DNA from: Coriobacteriales bacterium
GTDB lineage: Bacteria > Actinomycetota > Coriobacteriia > Anaerosomatales > JACRBU01
NCBI GenBank assembly: GCA_016213085.1
Contig: JACRBU010000064.1
Coordinates: 1 to 34,262 of the forward strand
Direction of reading: 5' to 3'
DNA length: 34,262 bases
This document shows positions 3,235 to 34,050 of the stretch, piece after piece. Every line of letters starts with the position of its first letter. Position 1 is the first letter of the stretch. Under the pieces are notes generated by a model that did not search any database, was not told the DNA's origin, and was given only the letters and a program-made list of their open reading frames with translations. The translations under genes and the position numbers were made by a program.

Positions 3235-4066
3235 CGGGGGGCGGCTTCTCGTGGTCGCCACGCCGATCGGCAACCTCGGCGACATCACGCTGAGGGCGCT
3301 CGACGCGCTGCGTGAGGCGCGCGTGATCGCGGCCGAGGACACGCGCGTCACCCGCAAGCTCCTCACTCGCTACGAGATCTCGACCCCGCTCGAACGCTTC
3401 GACGAGCACGTCGCCAGGCGCCGCGCTCCCGAGCTCGTCGCTCGCATGCTCGAGGGCGACGCGATCGCGCTTGTCTCCGACGCGGGCACGCCCGGCATCT
3501 CCGACCCGGGCGAGCAGCTCGTCGACGCCGCGCTCGAGGCGGGTGTCTCCGTCGAGGTGCTGCCAGGTCCTTCGGCGATCGTGACCGCGCTCGTCGCGAG
3601 CGGGTTGCCGACGCACGCGTTCTACTTCGGAGGCTTCCTGCCGCGCAAGGCCGGCGAGCGGACCCGGTACCTCGAATCGCTCGTGGCGCTCGATGCGACG
3701 CTCGTGTTCTACGAATCGCCGAAACGCGCGGCCGCGACGCTCGCCGCACTGGCCGAAGCCCTGCCGGGACGTCGCGCGGCGCTCGCTCGCGAGCTGACGA
3801 AGCTGCACGAAGAGGTCGTGCGCGCGCCCATCGCCGAACTCGCGGCGCGGATCGGCGCGCGCGAGGAGCTCAAGGGCGAGGTCGTGTTGCTCGTCGGACC
3901 GCGGACCGCCGACTTCATCCCCGAAGCGCCCGCCGACGATGTTATCCGCGCGCGACTGGCCACCCTCGAGGCTTCGGGTATCCGCAGAAGCGAGGCGGTC
4001 AAGCAGGTCGCGGTCGAATTCGGCGTCGCGCGCAAACGCGTGTACGAGCTCGCGCACGGCGAGTGA
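3227..4066 (+). CDS. rsmI: 16S rRNA (cytidine-1402-2'-O)-methyltransferase RsmI
   Basis: RsmI uses S-adenosylmethionine to methylate the 2'-OH of C1402 in the decoding centre of 16S rRNA. The 279-residue length is typical. Recognisable SAM-dependent tetrapyrrole-methylase-fold motifs are ATPIGNLGDITLRAL at residues 11-25, AEDTR at 36-40, the glycine-rich SDAGTPGISDPG at 84-95, PGPSA at 113-117 and FLPRK at 137-141. The ATG lies 8 bp inside the end of the preceding membrane-protein gene, so translation is coupled. In Bacillus the orthologue yabC also sits directly beside abrB, and the same neighbour follows here on the opposite strand. A strong hairpin downstream ends the unit. Confidence 0.95.
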   Translation: MPDGGRLLVVATPIGNLGDITLRALDALREARVIAAEDTRVTRKLLTRYEISTPLERFDEHVARRRAPELVARMLEGDAIALVSDAGTPGISDPGEQLVDAALEAGVSVEVLPGPSAIVTALVASGLPTHAFYFGGFLPRKAGERTRYLESLVALDATLVFYESPKRAAATLAALAEALPGRRAALARELTKLHEEVVRAPIAELAARIGAREELKGEVVLLVGPRTADFIPEAPADDVIRARLATLEASGIRRSEAVKQVAVEFGVARKRVYELAHGE

Positions 4067-4102
4067 CTCGGCGCCCCGACCGTCACCCGCTCGAAACGCA
4101 GG

Positions 4103-4135
4103 AACGCCCGCGCGGCGCACGTGCCGGCGGGCGTT
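4103..4135. terminator. Hairpin between convergent rsmI and AbrB-family gene
   Basis: AACGCCCGC at 4103-4111 pairs perfectly with GCGGGCGTT at 4127-4135. An inner CGGC/GCCG stem extends the structure around a small loop, with one bulged G. It lies between two convergent genes and could stop transcription from both sides. No long T tract follows on either strand, so intrinsic termination is likely but not certain. Confidence 0.6.
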
Positions 4136-4162
4136 GCGGATTCGAGATCGTGCTTGGCCGGG

Positions 4163-4411
4163 CTACTTCTTGCCCTTGACCGCGTCGACGCAATCCAGGC
4201 AGACCGGGCGTCCCTTGACCTTCGTGACGTCAGTGTCCGTTGCCCCGCAGATCGCGCACGCGTCCTTGTGCTTCTGCAGGATGATGCGGTCGCCCTCCAC
4301 GAAGATCGCCATGGGGTCCTTCACCTTGATGCCCAGCGTTCTGCGGAGCTCCATGGGGATGACGATGCGGCCAAGGTCGTCGACCCGGCGTACGATTCCA
4401 GTGTCGTGCAT
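4163..4411 (-). CDS. AbrB/SpoVT-family regulator with C-terminal four-cysteine zinc motif
   Basis: An 82-residue protein whose first 47 residues form an AbrB/MazE-type swapped-hairpin DNA-binding domain: GIVRRVDDLGRIVIPMELRR, then the LGI and AIFVEGDRIIL segments. Proteins of this family bind DNA as dimers or tetramers and act as transition-state regulators. The C-terminal third contains Cys52, Cys55, Cys71 and Cys74, two CxxC pairs that look like a small zinc knuckle. A conserved cysteine-bearing tail is known in AbrB itself for oligomerisation, but a paired CxxC is less usual. The ATG is preceded by GGAAGGGG at good spacing. The gene is divergent from metG; the shared 200-bp region holds two inverted repeats that could be binding sites, possibly for this protein. 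Position beside rsmI and metG matches abrB in Bacillus. Confidence 0.88.
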   Translation of the reverse strand: MHDTGIVRRVDDLGRIVIPMELRRTLGIKVKDPMAIFVEGDRIILQKHKDACAICGATDTDVTKVKGRPVCLDCVDAVKGKK

Positions 4412-4452
4412 CGTGACGCCCCTTCCGTGAGCCCGGCGGCGCGCGCCGGAAA

Positions 4453-4495
4453 CGGCGGTTCATCGGCGAGCAAAGCGAGTCCGTTGGAACCGCCG
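4453..4495. repeat. Inverted repeat upstream of AbrB-family gene (CGGCGGTTC arms)
   Basis: CGGCGGTTC at 4453-4461 is the exact reverse complement of GAACCGCCG at 4487-4495, with 25 bases between. It sits about 40 bp upstream of the AbrB-family start on the minus strand. It may be an operator or an mRNA leader hairpin; the sequence alone cannot distinguish these. Confidence 0.45.
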
Positions 4496-4497
4496 CC

Positions 4498-4525
4498 TTC
4501 TATGGCGGCAACGTCCGCCATAGAA
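4498..4525. repeat. Perfect 11-bp inverted repeat in the AbrB/metG intergenic region
   Basis: TTCTATGGCGG at 4498-4508 and CCGCCATAGAA at 4515-4525 are perfect reverse complements separated by six bases. The element is about 85 bp from either start codon. A TATCAT resembling a -10 box follows at 4531-4536 toward metG, but no good -35 is present. An operator for one of the divergent genes is plausible; a terminator is unlikely, since no gene ends here. Confidence 0.5.
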
Positions 4526-4611
4526 ACGGTTATCATCTGCCGAGAATCTGCAGGAAGAAACTCGTGGGGTACCGCTTCCAGTATTACCCTTGACCTGGGA
4601 GAGCCGAAACA

Positions 4612-6180
4612 ATGGCCGACCGTTCGTTCTACCTGACCACACCGATCTACTACGTGAACTCGGTCCCGCATCTCGGCACCGCGTACACCACGATCGCCGC
4701 GGACGCACTCGCTCGCTACCGACGACTAGTCGGAGACGACGTCTACTTTCTTACGGGACTCGACGAGCACGGCCAGAAGGTGGCCCAAGCGGCCGAGACC
4801 AACGGCATGTCCCCCCAGGAATGGGTCGACTCGATCGCTCCCAAGTTCGAGGATACCTGGGAGCTTCTGGATATCACAAATGACGACTTCATCCGCACCA
4901 CCGAGCCCCGGCACGAACGTGCCGCGAGCCATCTGCTCGAGGTCCTCAAGGAGAACGGCGATCTCTACCAGGGGCACTACGAGGGCTGGTACTGCCTGCC
5001 CGACGAGACCTTCTACACGCAGGAGCAGCTCGGCGAGGGCAAGTGTTGCCCCTCGTGCGGACGCGAGGTCCAGTTCATCCGCGAAGACAACTGGTTCTTC
5101 CGCCTTTCGGCGTATCAGGACCGCCTGCTCGAGCACTACGCGGCGCATCCCGAGTTCATCCAGCCGGAGACGCGTCGCAACGAGGTCGTCTCGTTCGTGC
5201 AGAGTGGCCTGAAGGACCTCTCCGTCAGCCGGACCGCGTTCACGTGGGGCATCCCGCTTCCCTGGGACCCCGATCACGTCATGTACGTCTGGTTCGATGC
5301 GCTGATCAACTACATCTCGGCGGTCGGCTACGGCGATCCCGCCAAGGCCGACGAGTTCGCCCGCCGCTGGCCGGCGCAGTTCCACTTCGTGGGCAAGGAC
5401 ATCATCCGCTTCCACTGCGCGATCTGGCCGGCCATGCTGATGGCCGCGGGCCTTGAGCTGCCGCAGACCGTCTTCGCCCACGGCTTCCTGCTCACCAAGG
5501 GCGAGAAGATGAGCAAGTCCAAGGGCAACGTCATGGCCCCGGCCGAACTGGTCGAGCGCTTCGGCGTCGATGCGTACCGCTACTACTTCCTGCGCGATGT
5601 GCAGTTCGGCACCGACGGCTCGATCTCGCTCGAGAGCATGGTCCAGCGCTTCAACGGCGACCTTGCCAACGACTGGGGCAACCTCTGCAGCCGCCTGTTC
5701 TCGATGACCCGGAAGTACTTCGACGGCATCGTGCCGCAGCCCGTCGAGGCACCGGTCCTCCACGAGTTCGATGACGCGTTCCGTGGCATCGCCGAAGGGC
5801 TTCCCGCAGCGTATGAGCGGGCGATGTCACGACTCGACTACGCCGCCGCGCTCGAGTCGGCCTGGGAGCTGATCAAGGCGACGAACCGCTACATCGAGGA
5901 CAACGCCCCCTGGAATCTCGCCAAGGCCGAGGAGACGCGCGAGCGGCTCCAGACGGTGATCTACAACGCGCTCGAGGCGGTGCGTATCGCGGCGCTGTTC
6001 ACGGCGCCGGTCATGCCGCGCACCTCCGCCGAAGTCTGGCGGCGCCTCTCCCTCGGCGACATCCACGCGACGACCGATCTCGCGACCGAGTCCGCCTGGG
6101 GTCGCCTTCCCGTGGGCAACGTCGTGGAGAAGGGCGAGCCGCTCTTCATGCGCATCGTCGAGGAGGAAGACGCGGGCTGA
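4612..6180 (+). CDS. metG: Methionyl-tRNA synthetase
   Basis: MetG charges tRNA-Met with methionine using ATP, in the cytoplasm; it supplies both elongator and initiator tRNA, and an initiator tRNA gene lies at the right end of this window. The class I signatures are visible: the HIGH-type motif PHLGTAYT at residues 19-26 and the KMSKS loop at 299-303. A short zinc-knuckle insertion includes CPSC at 146-149. The protein has 522 residues and ends after the anticodon-binding helical domain, so it lacks the EMAP-type C-terminal tRNA-binding domain of longer homologues such as that of Bacillus. The ATG follows GGGAGAG by eight bases. Its TGA overlaps the ATG of tatD by one base, as metS and yabD are adjacent in Bacillus. 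Confidence 0.96.
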   Translation: MADRSFYLTTPIYYVNSVPHLGTAYTTIAADALARYRRLVGDDVYFLTGLDEHGQKVAQAAETNGMSPQEWVDSIAPKFEDTWELLDITNDDFIRTTEPRHERAASHLLEVLKENGDLYQGHYEGWYCLPDETFYTQEQLGEGKCCPSCGREVQFIREDNWFFRLSAYQDRLLEHYAAHPEFIQPETRRNEVVSFVQSGLKDLSVSRTAFTWGIPLPWDPDHVMYVWFDALINYISAVGYGDPAKADEFARRWPAQFHFVGKDIIRFHCAIWPAMLMAAGLELPQTVFAHGFLLTKGEKMSKSKGNVMAPAELVERFGVDAYRYYFLRDVQFGTDGSISLESMVQRFNGDLANDWGNLCSRLFSMTRKYFDGIVPQPVEAPVLHEFDDAFRGIAEGLPAAYERAMSRLDYAAALESAWELIKATNRYIEDNAPWNLAKAEETRERLQTVIYNALEAVRIAALFTAPVMPRTSAEVWRRLSLGDIHATTDLATESAWGRLPVGNVVEKGEPLFMRIVEEEDAG

Positions 6181-7049
6181 TGGCCGAGGACCGCCAGCGC
6201 ATGCCGGAGTTCGGAGCGAAGCCGGCCGAGCGCGTCGAGCTTCCCGCGCTCGGCGCCGAGACCGCGGACACCCACGCGCATCTCGACATGCTCGACGATC
6301 CTGTGGGCGCGCTTCGCAACGCAGCTGCCGCTGATGTGACCTTCGTCGCGACCGTCGTCGACCTCACCGAAAAGCCCGAGGTCACGCTCGACGATCTCGG
6401 CGGATGGCTCGACGCCGCGGGGGCCGGCGCGCCTGAGGTCGGCCTCATCGTCGGCGTGCACCCGCACAACGCTCGTCACTGGAGCCCCCTGCTCGAAGAG
6501 CGGCTGCGCGCCATCGTCGCGAGTGACGACCGCGTCATCGGCCTCGGCGAGCTCGGCCTCGACTACCACTACGAGCACTCGTCTCGCGAGGACCAGCGCG
6601 CCATGTTCGCACGTCAGCTCGAGCTCGCGCACGAGTTCGGGCTGCCCGTGACGGTGCACCTGCGCGAAGCGCACGACGAAGGCCTCGGGATCCTCGACGA
6701 CGCTGGCGTGCCTACCGCAGGCGCCATCATCCACTGCTTCACCGAGGACGCCGAGACCGCCGAGAGGTTCCTCGCCCTCGGCGACAACGTCTACGTCTCG
6801 TTCGCGGGACCGGTCACCTTCAAGAAGGCCGAGCAGATCCGCGACGCCGCGCGCGTCGTCCCGCTCGACCGCCTGCTCTCCGAGACCGACTGCCCCTTCC
6901 TCGCGCCAGCCCCGTATCGAGGGCGCCCGAACGAACCCGCATACGTCACGCTCAACGTCGCCGCGATCGCCCGGGCCCGCGGGGACGCTCCCGCCGAGGT
7001 CGCCGCCGCGACGCTCGCCAACGCCCGGCGCATCTTCGGGAGGTCATGA
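6180..7049 (+). CDS. tatD: TatD-family metal-dependent hydrolase
   Basis: A 289-residue TIM-barrel amidohydrolase of the TatD family; characterised members are metal-dependent DNA 3'-5' exonucleases. The metal ligands can be traced: THAHLD at residues 31-36 (His32, His34), Glu124 in GELGLDYHY, His160, His185 in IIHCF and Asp237 in ETDCPF. Residues 1-28 are an N-terminal extension compared with most TatD proteins, which begin close to the first DTHAHL motif; the chosen ATG shares one base with the metG stop. An internal start cannot be excluded, but no in-frame ATG/GTG with a good ribosome site is apparent before the motif. Equivalent to yabD downstream of metS in Bacillus. Confidence 0.92.
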   Translation: MAEDRQRMPEFGAKPAERVELPALGAETADTHAHLDMLDDPVGALRNAAAADVTFVATVVDLTEKPEVTLDDLGGWLDAAGAGAPEVGLIVGVHPHNARHWSPLLEERLRAIVASDDRVIGLGELGLDYHYEHSSREDQRAMFARQLELAHEFGLPVTVHLREAHDEGLGILDDAGVPTAGAIIHCFTEDAETAERFLALGDNVYVSFAGPVTFKKAEQIRDAARVVPLDRLLSETDCPFLAPAPYRGRPNEPAYVTLNVAAIARARGDAPAEVAAATLANARRIFGRS

Positions 7050-10197: not shown

Positions 10198-10242
10198 AAA
10201 ACGCTCAGAGCGCGGGACGAATGTCCCGCGCTCTTGCGTTTT
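10198..10242 (+). terminator. Strong intrinsic terminator of veg
   Basis: AGAGCGCGGGAC at 10207-10218 pairs perfectly with GTCCCGCGCTCT at 10223-10234 around a GAAT loop. Outer AAAACGC/GCGTTTT extends the stem and ends in a T run. It begins 15 bases after the veg stop. Confidence 0.88.
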
Positions 10243-12503: not shown

Positions 12504-12573
12504 GCCAGGATTGAGCGGCGCCGCAGGCGTCCGCTCGAATCCTGGCGCCGATGGCAGCGCAGTCTGCCATCGG
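12504..12573. terminator. Two back-to-back hairpins after spoVG
   Basis: The first hairpin pairs a 15-base arm at 12504-12518 with 12531-12546, complementary throughout except for one bulged G. The second pairs CCGATGGCAG at 12548-12557 with CTGCCATCGG at 12564-12573 around a six-base loop. A weaker TGGGCC/GGCCCA stem lies before them at 12449-12476. None has a T run, so they may be Rho-assisted or roadblock terminators that insulate spoVG from the tRNA promoter. Confidence 0.5.
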
Positions 12574-12577
12574 CCGG

Positions 12578-30395: not shown

Positions 30396-31385
30396 CTAAA
30401 GGCACCGCAGGTCATCGGCGTGTGGTGTTTCTGTGGAGTTACCTGTGACCTGCCGCGACGCGGCCCCCGACAGTTCCACACGCGCTCTAGCTGCGGAAAG
30501 CCGATCGGCCGCTGTCGTCAGGGAATCGGTCGTGTGCAGGTAGCGCATCGCCGTCTGCATCTGCCGCCATCCGTGGATGTCCATGACCTCTCGCACGGTG
30601 GCGCCGGAAGCAAGGTAGAGCGACGCGCAGGTGTGCCGAAGGTCGTGGAAGCGCGTACCCGGCGGGACGCCCGCACGCGCGCAGGCCGGTTTGAACACGC
30701 GTCGGCGGAAGTCGTCCGGGTCGATGGGGCGTCCCGAGGGCTGAGGGAAGACGAGGTCATCTGCCGAAGGCGGGCAGCGGGGGCGCCACGCCAGCAACAC
30801 GTCGACGATGTGCGCGGGTAGCGGGACCTCGCGGTCGTGCCCGGTCTTGGTGGATCGCTGCATCCTGGTTCGGTAGTAGGTCTTGTTCACGCGTGCCAGG
30901 CGCGTGCCGAAGTCGATGTCCGACCAGGTCAGAGCCCTGATCTCGCCGAGACGCATGCCGGTGTAGGCGGCCGTGGCGACGAACGCGCGGTACTGCGGCG
31001 GAATCTCGGCGATGAGGCGCTCGAGGTCGGCGAGCGAGAGGATTCTGCGCTCGTCTGCGGCAGGGACGGATGAATCGAACCAAGGGCTCGGATCGCGGGA
31101 GAGCGAGCCCATGCGATGGTGCCAGCGGAGGCAGGCGCGCAGGGGGACGAGGACGTTGCTGAGGCGCTTCGGCTGGATGCCGGAGCGAGAGAGCGCGACG
31201 ACGACGGATGCGATCGCGGTGCCGTCGATCGCGACGAGCGAGACTCCGGCAAGCGCGGGGCCGAGGTGTCTTCGGTAGATGCTCTCGTAGTCGGCGAGCG
31301 TGGAGGCGCGAAGCGGCCGGGCGCTGCAGCAGCGGTAGGCGAGCCAGGCGGCCCAGGCGTCGGCGAATGTGGTTGGAGGCGACAT
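30396..31385 (-). CDS. Tyrosine recombinase/integrase
   Basis: A 329-residue site-specific recombinase of the phage-integrase family. The N-terminal SAM-like DNA-binding domain spans about 1-100. In the catalytic domain the active-site residues are Arg145 in TGMRLGE, Lys180 in STKTGHDREVPL, His247 and Arg250 in HDLRH, His271 in IHGWRQ and the nucleophile Tyr282 in MRYLHTT. All are present, so the enzyme should be active. ATG at 31385 is the most likely start: the N-terminal domain begins there, although no ribosome site is seen; longer upstream reading runs into the divergent ATPase gene. It marks the left side of a probable accessory block. The cognate attachment site was not found. Confidence 0.88.
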   Translation of the reverse strand: MSPPTTFADAWAAWLAYRCCSARPLRASTLADYESIYRRHLGPALAGVSLVAIDGTAIASVVVALSRSGIQPKRLSNVLVPLRACLRWHHRMGSLSRDPSPWFDSSVPAADERRILSLADLERLIAEIPPQYRAFVATAAYTGMRLGEIRALTWSDIDFGTRLARVNKTYYRTRMQRSTKTGHDREVPLPAHIVDVLLAWRPRCPPSADDLVFPQPSGRPIDPDDFRRRVFKPACARAGVPPGTRFHDLRHTCASLYLASGATVREVMDIHGWRQMQTAMRYLHTTDSLTTAADRLSAARARVELSGAASRQVTGNSTETPHADDLRCL

Positions 31386-31446: not shown

Positions 31447-31476
31447 TTGACTCGCCTCGCTGCTGCGCGGTACAAA
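31447..31476 (+). promoter_or_regulatory. Promoter of the DUF4143 ATPase gene
   Basis: TTGACT at 31447-31452 and TACAAA at 31471-31476 are separated by 18 bases. The -10 box is the first half of the left arm of the palindrome at 31471-31502, so occupancy of that site would block initiation. Predicted start is near 31483. Confidence 0.6.
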
Positions 31477-31502
31477 ATGTTCAATATCCTGAACATTTTG
31501 TA
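31471..31502. promoter_or_regulatory. Perfect 13-bp-arm palindrome, likely operator
   Basis: TACAAAATGTTCA at 31471-31483 is the exact reverse complement of TGAACATTTTGTA at 31490-31502, with ATATCC between. It overlaps the -10 box and predicted transcription start and ends 13 bases before the ATG at 31516. It is AT-rich in a GC-rich genome, which also marks it as a functional site. A homodimeric repressor is expected; the ATPase itself, through its winged-helix part, is one candidate. Confidence 0.7.
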
Positions 31503-31515
31503 GAACGTCTGGTAG

Positions 31516-32712
31516 ATGCCCGTATTCGAGCGACACATCGCCAGGATCTTGCGGGCTCGTCTCCACGAGCCGCGACGATTCATGCAAGTTGTGCAAGGGC
31601 CTCGGCAGGTCGGGACGACCACGGCGGTGCGCCAAGTACTGGCCTCGCTGCGGATTCCTTCCATCTACGTGTCCGCGGACATGCCAGAGGCGCAGGGTCG
31701 TCGCTGGTTGACGGAGGCATGGGACGAGGCGCGTTCGATTCACGACCAGACGGGCGGACCGGTTGTTCTGGCTCTCGATGAGGCCCAGAAGCTTCCGAAG
31801 TGGACGAGCTGGGTCAAGTACCTTTGGGACCAAGATGCGTGGGACAAGCGGGACATCCGTGTCGTGCTGCTCGGATCCTCGCCGCTTCTGATCGGCCGCG
31901 GGTTGAGCGAGAGCATGGCGGGCCGGTTCGAGATCATCAGGGCGTCGCACTGGACGTGGCCCGAATGCCGCGACGCCTTCGGGTGGGATCTCGAAACGTT
32001 CATCTTCTTCGGGGGGTACCCCGGTGCGGCGACGCTCGTCGGTGATGAGGCGAGGTGGCGCGAGTATGTGAAGGAGACCGCGATCGAGACGAGCGTCTCG
32101 CGCGATCTGCTGCACATGACCCGCATTGACAAACCTGCGGTGCTCCGACGGCTGATCTACCTCGCGGCGGAGTACTCGGGGCGGGAGCTGAGCTTCCGCA
32201 AGATACTCGGACAGCTCGATGACGTCGGGAACGCGACGACCGTCGCGCACTACCTCGATTTGCTGGAGGGGGTCGGTCTCGCGTCGGGTCTGCAGAAGTA
32301 CGCGGGTGAGCCTTTTCGCTCGCGAGCGTCGACTCCCAAGCTGATGGTTCACAACACAGCGCTTATGAGCGTCATGTCGGGGAGGTCATTCGCCGAGGCG
32401 CGAGCCGACGGTGCCTGGTGGGGGCGCCTTGTGGAGAGCTGCGTAGGCGCCCACCTCCTAGCGCAACAGCGGCGGTGGCCCGGTGACGCGGTCTTCTACT
32501 GGAGAGACCGAAGCGACGAGGTCGACTTCGTCTTGAGGTCCGGAAGTCGGCTGATCGCAGTCGAGGTGAAGTCCGGGGCGCACGCCGGGTCGAAGAGGGG
32601 TCTCGAGGCGTTCGACCGACGGTTCGGCGGCGATGTTACGCCACTCGTGGTGGGGACCGGCGGGTTGAGCATGCAGGAGTTCTTGGAGAGCGTCATCGTG
32701 CCGCTGGACTGA
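31516..32712 (+). CDS. AAA-family ATPase with DUF4143 domain, altered Walker A
   Basis: A 398-residue protein of the AAA_14/DUF4143 group, common in bacterial and archaeal accessory regions and of unknown role. Residues 28-36 read GPRQVGTTT: the Walker A lysine expected at position 34 is threonine. Walker B is intact (LALDEAQK, Asp88 and Glu89), as is a sensor-like RVVLLGSS at 115-122. A winged-helix segment lies at about 205-260. The C-terminal part has a PD-(D/E)xK-like set: Asp337 in DEVDF and Glu350-x-Lys352 in VEVKSG, suggesting a nuclease-related fold. No clear ribosome site precedes the ATG. It is divergent from the integrase and sits behind the 31471-31502 palindrome. It could be part of a mobile-element or defence function, but there is no direct support. 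Confidence 0.85.
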   Translation: MPVFERHIARILRARLHEPRRFMQVVQGPRQVGTTTAVRQVLASLRIPSIYVSADMPEAQGRRWLTEAWDEARSIHDQTGGPVVLALDEAQKLPKWTSWVKYLWDQDAWDKRDIRVVLLGSSPLLIGRGLSESMAGRFEIIRASHWTWPECRDAFGWDLETFIFFGGYPGAATLVGDEARWREYVKETAIETSVSRDLLHMTRIDKPAVLRRLIYLAAEYSGRELSFRKILGQLDDVGNATTVAHYLDLLEGVGLASGLQKYAGEPFRSRASTPKLMVHNTALMSVMSGRSFAEARADGAWWGRLVESCVGAHLLAQQRRWPGDAVFYWRDRSDEVDFVLRSGSRLIAVEVKSGAHAGSKRGLEAFDRRFGGDVTPLVVGTGGLSMQEFLESVIVPLD

Positions 32713-32807: not shown

Positions 32808-32834
32808 TATATGTCCAACCATGATGAACATATA
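32808..32834. repeat. Inverted repeat across the MNT start codon
   Basis: TATATGT (32808-32814) and ACATATA (32828-32834) are exact reverse complements spaced by 13 bases and enclose the start codon. This could be a second binding site next to the palindrome, or a weak mRNA hairpin at the 5' end. Confidence 0.4.
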
Positions 32835-33377
32835 GTCAGCCAGATGGAACTTACGTTCCGCCTGACGGACACGCCGACCGCCCAGGAATCCGTGCTTGCC
32901 TTCCTGCTCGACGCGGCCGGCGATCAATTCACCGAGGTGGAACTACGCAGGATATTCGATCTGCCGAAGTCGACGCTGCACTTGTCGCTCTCGAACTTGG
33001 TCGAAGGGGGACTCGTGGTTCGAGAGAACGTGGGCCGTACCGGCGTATACTCCGTCGACACTTCTGATCCGCTTGTTCGGACCCTGAAGCTTGCCAGGGC
33101 CATCGCGGCCGTACAGAGAGTGATCAAGCCGCTCAAAGAGCGACTGGATCTCGTGGTCCTCTTCGGGAGTGCCTCACGCGGCGAGAATCGGGCAACCAGC
33201 GATGTCGATGTTCTCGTCATCGCTCAGGACCGCGATTACGTCGAGGCAGAACTGGCGCGCCACCAATGGCTCCAGCCCGTGGTGATGACGCCGGCCGAGC
33301 ATATGACGTTGATCGCCGAGGGTGGGACGTTCGCCAAGGAAACCGCTGGCGGGCTCACGATCTTGGAGCGCACATGA
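32811..33377 (+). CDS. Winged-helix/MNT nucleotidyltransferase fusion, antitoxin-like
   Basis: A 188-residue fusion. Residues about 25-85 form a winged helix-turn-helix (FTEVELRRIFDLPKSTLHLS is the helix pair, GVYSVD the wing). Residues about 105-180 are a minimal nucleotidyltransferase (MNT) domain with LFGSASRGENRATSDVDVLV: Gly119-Ser120 and the metal ligands Asp131 and Asp133. In characterised HEPN/MNT pairs the MNT protein neutralises the HEPN toxin by adding AMP to it; a fused DNA-binding domain would add autoregulation. The ATG overlaps none of the upstream genes and lies directly after an operator-like palindrome. The stop overlaps the HEPN start by 4 bp (ATGA). Codon choice looks more AT-rich than in the housekeeping block, which hints at acquisition. 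Confidence 0.88.
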   Translation: MSNHDEHIVSQMELTFRLTDTPTAQESVLAFLLDAAGDQFTEVELRRIFDLPKSTLHLSLSNLVEGGLVVRENVGRTGVYSVDTSDPLVRTLKLARAIAAVQRVIKPLKERLDLVVLFGSASRGENRATSDVDVLVIAQDRDYVEAELARHQWLQPVVMTPAEHMTLIAEGGTFAKETAGGLTILERT

Positions 33378-33844
33378 GCGAGTTGGACAAATGCATCAAG
33401 CGCGGGGGCCTGTCACGCTTCGACCGCATTGCCCCGGACGTCGTCGAGAACGAACTGGCGTCAGCCCGTGAGGATCTTTCCGACGCTGAGTTCGTCTTCG
33501 GCAACGAGATGTGGAAGCGAACCACGGTTACCGCGTATTACGCGATGTTCCATTCCGCAAGAGCCCTGGTGCTTCAGCGCGGATTTGCCGAGAAGAGCCA
33601 CTACTGCCTTCTCGTGGCATTCCGGGCCTTCTATGGGGATGACGAGACTGGACGTGAACTGGCGCGAGGCATCGAGCGCGCCCGCGTCCTGCGACAGAAC
33701 GCCGACTACCACGCGGACTTCTCTCCTGAGGCGGCAGCGGCTGTGCTGCAGGTGGCTCAGCGGTTTCTCGCCTTTGCCGAGAGCCACCACGGTGCCGGCA
33801 CTGCTGAAGGCTCGGTCGGCGAGGTGGAGCCGACTGATGACTGA
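33374..33844 (+). CDS. HEPN domain protein, toxin-like
   Basis: A 156-residue all-helical HEPN protein. The conserved helix WKRTTVTAYYAMFHSARALV is at 48-67, and an R-x5-H element is RQNADYH (Arg107 to His113), within the RX4-6H range that forms the RNase site of HEPN toxins. In the Shewanella HEPN/MNT pair the motif is RX4HXY and its tyrosine is AMPylated; here a tyrosine (Tyr112) lies just before the histidine instead, so the modified residue may differ. The last 25 residues are a hydrophilic tail. ATG at 33374 is fixed by the 4-bp overlap with the MNT gene. The MNT-HEPN order and coupling agree with a toxin-antitoxin unit; activity is unproven. Confidence 0.87.
   Translation: MSELDKCIKRGGLSRFDRIAPDVVENELASAREDLSDAEFVFGNEMWKRTTVTAYYAMFHSARALVLQRGFAEKSHYCLLVAFRAFYGDDETGRELARGIERARVLRQNADYHADFSPEAAAAVLQVAQRFLAFAESHHGAGTAEGSVGEVEPTDD

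Positions 33845-33973: not shown

Positions 33974-34050
<77 letters not shown>

Follow-up and report, generated by a model that had tools for sequence, protein, structure and literature searches.

Helix-turn-helix proteins that regulate their own genes are a long-known theme of defence and mobile loci, with the C proteins of restriction-modification systems and the autorepressors of toxin-antitoxin loci as examples. According to the accessible part of one report, RptR is a repressor of a phage defence island and controls restriction-modification systems (PMC12255303). The available passages of a second paper describe PDC-S01 as an ATPase fused to the PD-(D/E)XK superfamily and place it fourth by frequency among prokaryotic defences; most PDCs still await experimental validation (PMC12988326). 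In the literature found, DUF4143 is represented by the Thermus gene TT_P0211, whose level rises 6.6-fold only if Argonaute and a plasmid are both present, and COG1373 receives a single mention per paper. Our search returned no paper on a DUF4143 operator or on DUF4143 function; subscription papers and preprints lay outside it, and absence is thus unproven. Within that scope, the statement in the original prediction that autoregulated DUF4143 ATPases are uncharacterised still stands, as no published DUF4143 regulatory site was found.

The window, i.e. the whole stretch of 34,262 nucleotides analysed here from a Coriobacteriales bacterium, contains a DUF4143 ATPase gene (product P0001) preceded by a perfect dyad (Table 1). 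We consider it likely, with good confidence, that the dyad is the operator of this gene and is read by the winged helix of the ATPase itself, and that binding is most likely repressive. This reading is made without binding or expression data.

Table 1. Positions of the dyad, its half-sites and the surrounding features in the window
Feature	Position	Strand	Basis or remark
Divergent tyrosine recombinase (integrase)	30396..31385	-	Start read from sequence, 85 bp from dyad
Probable -35 hexamer TTGACT	31447..31452	+	Read by eye; scanner gave no call
Perfect dyad, probable operator of DUF4143 ATPase gene	31471..31502	.	13-bp arms, 6-bp centre
Probable -10 hexamer TACAAA, within left arm	31471..31476	+	18-nt spacer; read by eye, inference
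Left core half-site TGTTCA	31478..31483	- (TGAACA on minus)	Fits family T-G-A-[GA]-[TC]-A, N6-centred register
Right core half-site TGAACA	31490..31495	+	Followed by TTTTGT, cf. Bacteroidales homologues L097, L108, L115
AAA_14 + DUF4143 ATPase P0001, 398 aa, PADLOC PDC-S01 type	31516..32712	+	Pfam, PADLOC, model, alignment
Helix-turn-helix segment of P0001, codons 224-252	32185..32271	+	Covarying R228, V237, A240, T241, T242

The dyad reads TACAAAATGTTCA-ATATCC-TGAACATTTTGTA. Its 13-nt arms are 100% complementary around a loop of 6, as had been predicted, and it ends 13 bp ahead of the ATPase start codon (ATG at 31516). With loops up to 12 considered, no other perfect dyad in the window is as long. 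None of 20 block-shuffles keeping the local composition contained an arm of 13 or more, and the dyad has a G+C content of 25% versus 68% and 59% in the 100 bp on either side and 67% in the window. These values bear out the original prediction that the palindrome is unlikely by chance and contrasts with its surroundings. Neither the window nor the 2.19-Mb genome (ca. 90% complete) has a further copy at up to three mismatches, and the looser core TRYTCA-N6-TGARYA has its single genome-wide occurrence at the dyad locus. Other perfect dyads in the window, with arms of 11-12 bp, are located at 4498-4525, 10207-10234, and 12547-12574.

The dyad had been placed exactly on the ATPase promoter, overlapping the -10 box. 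The -35 and -10 hexamers are readable by eye, but a consensus promoter scanner, which requires T at the last -10 position, called no promoter at this site; the placement is therefore likely, yet unproven, and the promoter is weak by consensus. In the homologues, TTGA[CT][AT] is enriched 18-19 bp ahead of the plus-strand half-site, or 40-41 bp ahead of it, which is one 22-bp repeat more; with this spacing the -10 element falls inside the half-site. Owing to its distance of 85 bp from the integrase start, the dyad could influence the divergent gene too. No terminator was found near the dyad.

We collected homologues within the same class, on 80 genome contigs spread over many phyla, on viral contigs, and in plasmid and phage records. 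The site count covers 114 of them, mostly with at least 42% identity, from Gammaproteobacteria, Chloroflexi, Nitrospirae, Acidobacteria, Verrucomicrobia, Bacteroidetes, Actinobacteria, and others. Some lie on records called plasmids, and many on large chromosomal contigs. Nearly all homologues read have short A+T-rich half-sites right ahead of the start codon. Phased half-sites (TGA[AG]NA), spaced alternately by 12 and 10 bp or repeated directly at 22 bp, occur within 100 bp ahead of the start codon in 82 of the 114 homologues. Phased pairs were seen in 0-1 of ca. 110 loci in each of six control regions, and in 0.45 on average after shuffling. A fair comparison is the one with the control regions, as both the window dyad and the loci read first had served to derive the pattern. 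Without any sequence being assumed, exact 8-bp direct repeats were present at 22 bp in 47 loci and at 21 bp in 12, and at any other spacing between 9 and 33 in at most two loci each.

The commonest layout across most phyla is TACTCA-N6-TGAGTA-N4-TACTCA-N6-TGAGTA; many Bacteroidales instead have 22-bp direct repeats, e.g. TTTGAACATTTTGTAA or TTTGAGAATTTTG. Judged by its letters, the window dyad is an array of the same type, with the half-site TGAACA followed by TTTTGT. Hence, the search for the same dyad at other DUF4143 genes, put forward as a check of the original prediction, has a divided outcome: the exact letters are not kept, but the array architecture is. The last half-site overlaps the start codon in L038 (ATGAGTAAA), and L044, L055, L061, L066, and L071 share this register, so that operator and first codons have letters in common.

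An all-against-all comparison of 575 flanking ORFs identified no general conserved neighbour gene, and on this ground an external conserved regulator was rejected. Only two families recur in the flanks: further DUF4143 ATPases, at 10 loci, and a large P-loop gene confined to one ten-locus subclade. This gene of ca. 1000 aa follows the ATPase gene in L059, L062, L076, L078, L086, L087, L091, L099, L100, and L118. In L100 it spans 3665-6637 with a stop/start overlap with the ATPase gene, and has no Pfam or PADLOC match. A two-gene system with the ATPase as regulator is possible in this subclade.

P0001 matches the PADLOC profile PDLC04791 of the phage-defence candidate PDC-S01 (COG1373/DUF4143) with an E value of 5e-156. 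Its predicted structure (pLDDT 93.5) consists of an AAA+ core, a helix-turn-helix region, and a C-terminal α/β domain. The model places the winged helix at ca. residues 205-260; it includes helices 227-233 and 240-252, and the strand after them is possibly the wing. When folded by itself, the winged helix gave only a poor prediction (pLDDT 58), which was excluded from the evidence. The C-terminal EVDFV...AVEVKSG reads as the signature of PD-(D/E)XK enzymes, whose residues D337, E350, and K352 are present by sequence and alignment. The best fold match in the PDB is Orc1/Cdc6 on origin DNA (2qby, E 2e-7), with a low TM score of 0.32. The Walker A motif reads GPRQVGTTT and carries K34T (codon 34 at 31615-31617). 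The lysine is kept in 128 of 129 homologues, P0001 being the only exception. The substitution may be genuine, a sign of early decay, or an artefact of sequencing, and the missing lysine leaves the ATPase activity of the window copy in doubt. The PDC-S01 membership rests on the profile match and stands despite K34T; an anti-phage activity is only putative.

The spelling of the half-site follows the protein tree of the ATPases. We then scored how half-site bases covary with 390 protein columns, using APC correction for column background. The best columns for half-site positions 0, 1, 2, 3, and 4 are 241, 237, 241, 240, and 228, respectively; all five fall in the winged helix (residues 222-262), versus at most three of five in 300 clade-preserving swaps and 300 full shuffles. 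Specifically, C4 accompanies R or K at 228 in 29 of 29 cases, versus 5 of 94 with other residues, where T4 mostly takes its place. C0 accompanies K, R, or Q at 237 in all 17 cases, versus 2 of 111 otherwise, and the rule for K/R237 as read by eye is C at position 0 plus T at position 1. A3 goes with A240 in 7 of 9. Two refinements came later: K228 acts like R228, and A/S241 tends toward C at position 2. The exceptions are V240 with G3, A240 with G3 (L006, L041, and L239), and T228 with C4 in five Bacteroidales proteins. Pooled over four rules, ca. 16 independent tree contrasts point in the rule direction and none against it. The contrast for each rule alone is borderline (median p ca. 0.06-0.25), so the weight rests on the pooled result, and the four rules, counted as separate in the pooling, are only approximately so.

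The held-out set, restricted to Actinomycetota, comprised 23 more homologues of the class and 16 of the phylum, and was read after the first three rules had been noted. R228 went with C4 in 8 of 8, and K228 did so in L242. A240 went with A3 in two of three (G200 and G116b, not L239), and K/R237 with C0T1 in five of six, the exception being L230, which combines K237 with TGAGTA-type sites. Proteins with T, N, Q, S, or H at 228 had T4, apart from the near-duplicates G170b and G179 (T228, mixed TGAGCA/TGAGTA arrays), the degenerate G083b, and the mixed L241. The half-site of L247, a divergent partial match, was unreadable. The A/S241 rule was framed on G074b (TGCGCA) and afterwards satisfied by L242 (S241, TGCGCA). 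G116b agrees with the window protein at the five residues (R, V, A, T, and T) and also has the half-site TGAACA. As half-sites of the held-out loci, like those of the divergent ones, were called by eye, this test is strong but not blind.

The array architecture at homologues, the absence of a general neighbour, and the residue-base matching together indicate that the ATPase very probably binds its own operator, an inference from comparative evidence alone. Self-regulation through the winged helix, as first proposed, is accordingly supported by the arrays and by the covariation of the recognition helix. Direct binding is inferred from this covariation, and repression from position only; the benefit of repression and any role of ATP are inferences as well. 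The winged helix in the DUF4143 region would be the part with which ATPase subunits grip the half-sites (TGAACA at this locus), and the bound half-sites would share one DNA face and be separated by roughly one helical turn. Binding would most likely block transcription, since the dyad covers the probable -10 and start-point region and nearly reaches the start codon. Such a block may keep a potentially dangerous ATPase/nuclease-like protein scarce. The nucleotide state is the obvious candidate for relieving repression, to which the K34T copy of the window may be unresponsive.

The main rival also has the ATPase on the array, not mainly for transcription control: the array would serve storage or assembly of a protein released or activated on infection, or a sensing role, or would be a target of the nuclease. 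The fusion of an AAA+ module to a PD-(D/E)XK-like domain, the ordered oligomers suggested by multi-site 22-bp arrays, and Orc1/Cdc6 on origin DNA as top solved fold match all speak for it. We nevertheless judge it unlikely, because the arrays sit on core promoters and reach into start codons (ATGAGTAAA in L038 and L066), which is the logic of an operator. Far less probable is an unlinked or neighbouring host repressor as the reader of the dyad. Perfect dyads are typical targets of many repressors, and the downstream gene at 32811-33377 has a MarR-like helix-turn-helix and a nucleotidyltransferase domain; the site, however, is single-copy in the genome, its spelling tracks winged-helix residues of the ATPase, and the same architecture recurs without a generally conserved neighbour in so many phyla that a single host regulator is implausible.

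Two further readings of the dyad retain next to no credibility. Its 13-bp arms around a 6-bp centre resemble known core sites of tyrosine recombinases, and the integrase starts close by, so the dyad could be such a site. This was rejected, as no second copy exists in the ca. 90% complete genome at up to three mismatches, the integrase is not conserved beside other arrays, and relatives have direct-repeat arrays. An attenuator or stability element in the 5' leader was likewise rejected: a transcript spanning the dyad would form a hairpin with a 13-bp stem and a 6-nt loop, but the direct repeats of Bacteroidales fold no hairpin, the spacing tracks the DNA helical turn, and neither a terminator nor an Rfam match was found.

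Autoregulation by the ATPase may not be limited to the P0001 subfamily. The other three DUF4143 genes of the window genome are distant, and one or more private dyads directly precede each. At L134, L135, and L137 (contigs C196, C50, and C25), these are ACCTTGCATTTCG..CGAAAATGCAAGGT, ACCATGAAAATCC..GGATTTTCATGGT, and two copies of TACCCTT-N6-AAGGGTA, respectively. The best upstream dyad scored at least 10 in 11 of 35 distant DUF4143 genes versus 3 of 208 control segments. Private dyads thus probably extend beyond the subfamily in other spellings, which is less certain. A genome of the same order (G026) has 14 DUF4143 matches (loci L185, L204, and L213-L222).

Downstream of the ATPase gene, the window has at 32811-33844 a helix-turn-helix/nucleotidyltransferase gene and an overlapping HEPN gene, with a PADLOC match to PDC-M05A and a weak one to PDC-M05B. 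The integrase and a tRNA-Met (33974-34050) are nearby, and together they look like a small defence island.

By the available passages on PDC-S01, few candidate defence genes are as widespread in bacteria and archaea as DUF4143/PDC-S01. The family-wide operator and the residue-to-base code give it a testable activity, i.e. sequence-specific binding at its own promoters. The arrays are ready DNA ligands for structure work, and R228T (C4 to T4) and A240T (A3 to G3) are the predicted specificity-switch mutants. The three paralogues of genome G116 each have a different half-site, which offers a way to explain what keeps paralogues apart. A bolder idea, offered tentatively and with low confidence, is that the very common PDC-S01/DUF4143 family consists of AAA+ proteins that bind DNA sequence-specifically, with a readable winged-helix code and a private 22-bp-phased array at each gene copy. 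Promoter occupancy would then be part of sensing invasion, and release or titration from the promoter would turn the ATPase/nuclease on.

Compared with known systems, P0001 resembles PDC-S01 along nearly all of its own length; it differs in K34T, and the accessible passages on PDC-S01 are silent on operators and regulation. In the portion of the RptR report available, defence genes are similarly under transcriptional control, but by a separate repressor, whereas in the DUF4143 case the regulator would be the ATPase. AAA+ proteins with a winged helix on repeated DNA sites are also found in Orc1/Cdc6 and the iteron-binding initiators, and the 22-bp direct repeats recall iterons. In contrast to these, DUF4143 genes are mostly single genes with promoter sites, no replication genes are conserved beside them, and the fold similarity is weak. 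C proteins and toxin-antitoxin autorepressors share with this locus the gene-private dyad on the own promoter, but they are small dedicated regulators, unlike the predicted ATPase/nuclease-like binder at DUF4143. What is new is the binder, a predicted AAA+/nuclease-like defence candidate, together with its private arrays across phyla and a legible recognition code.
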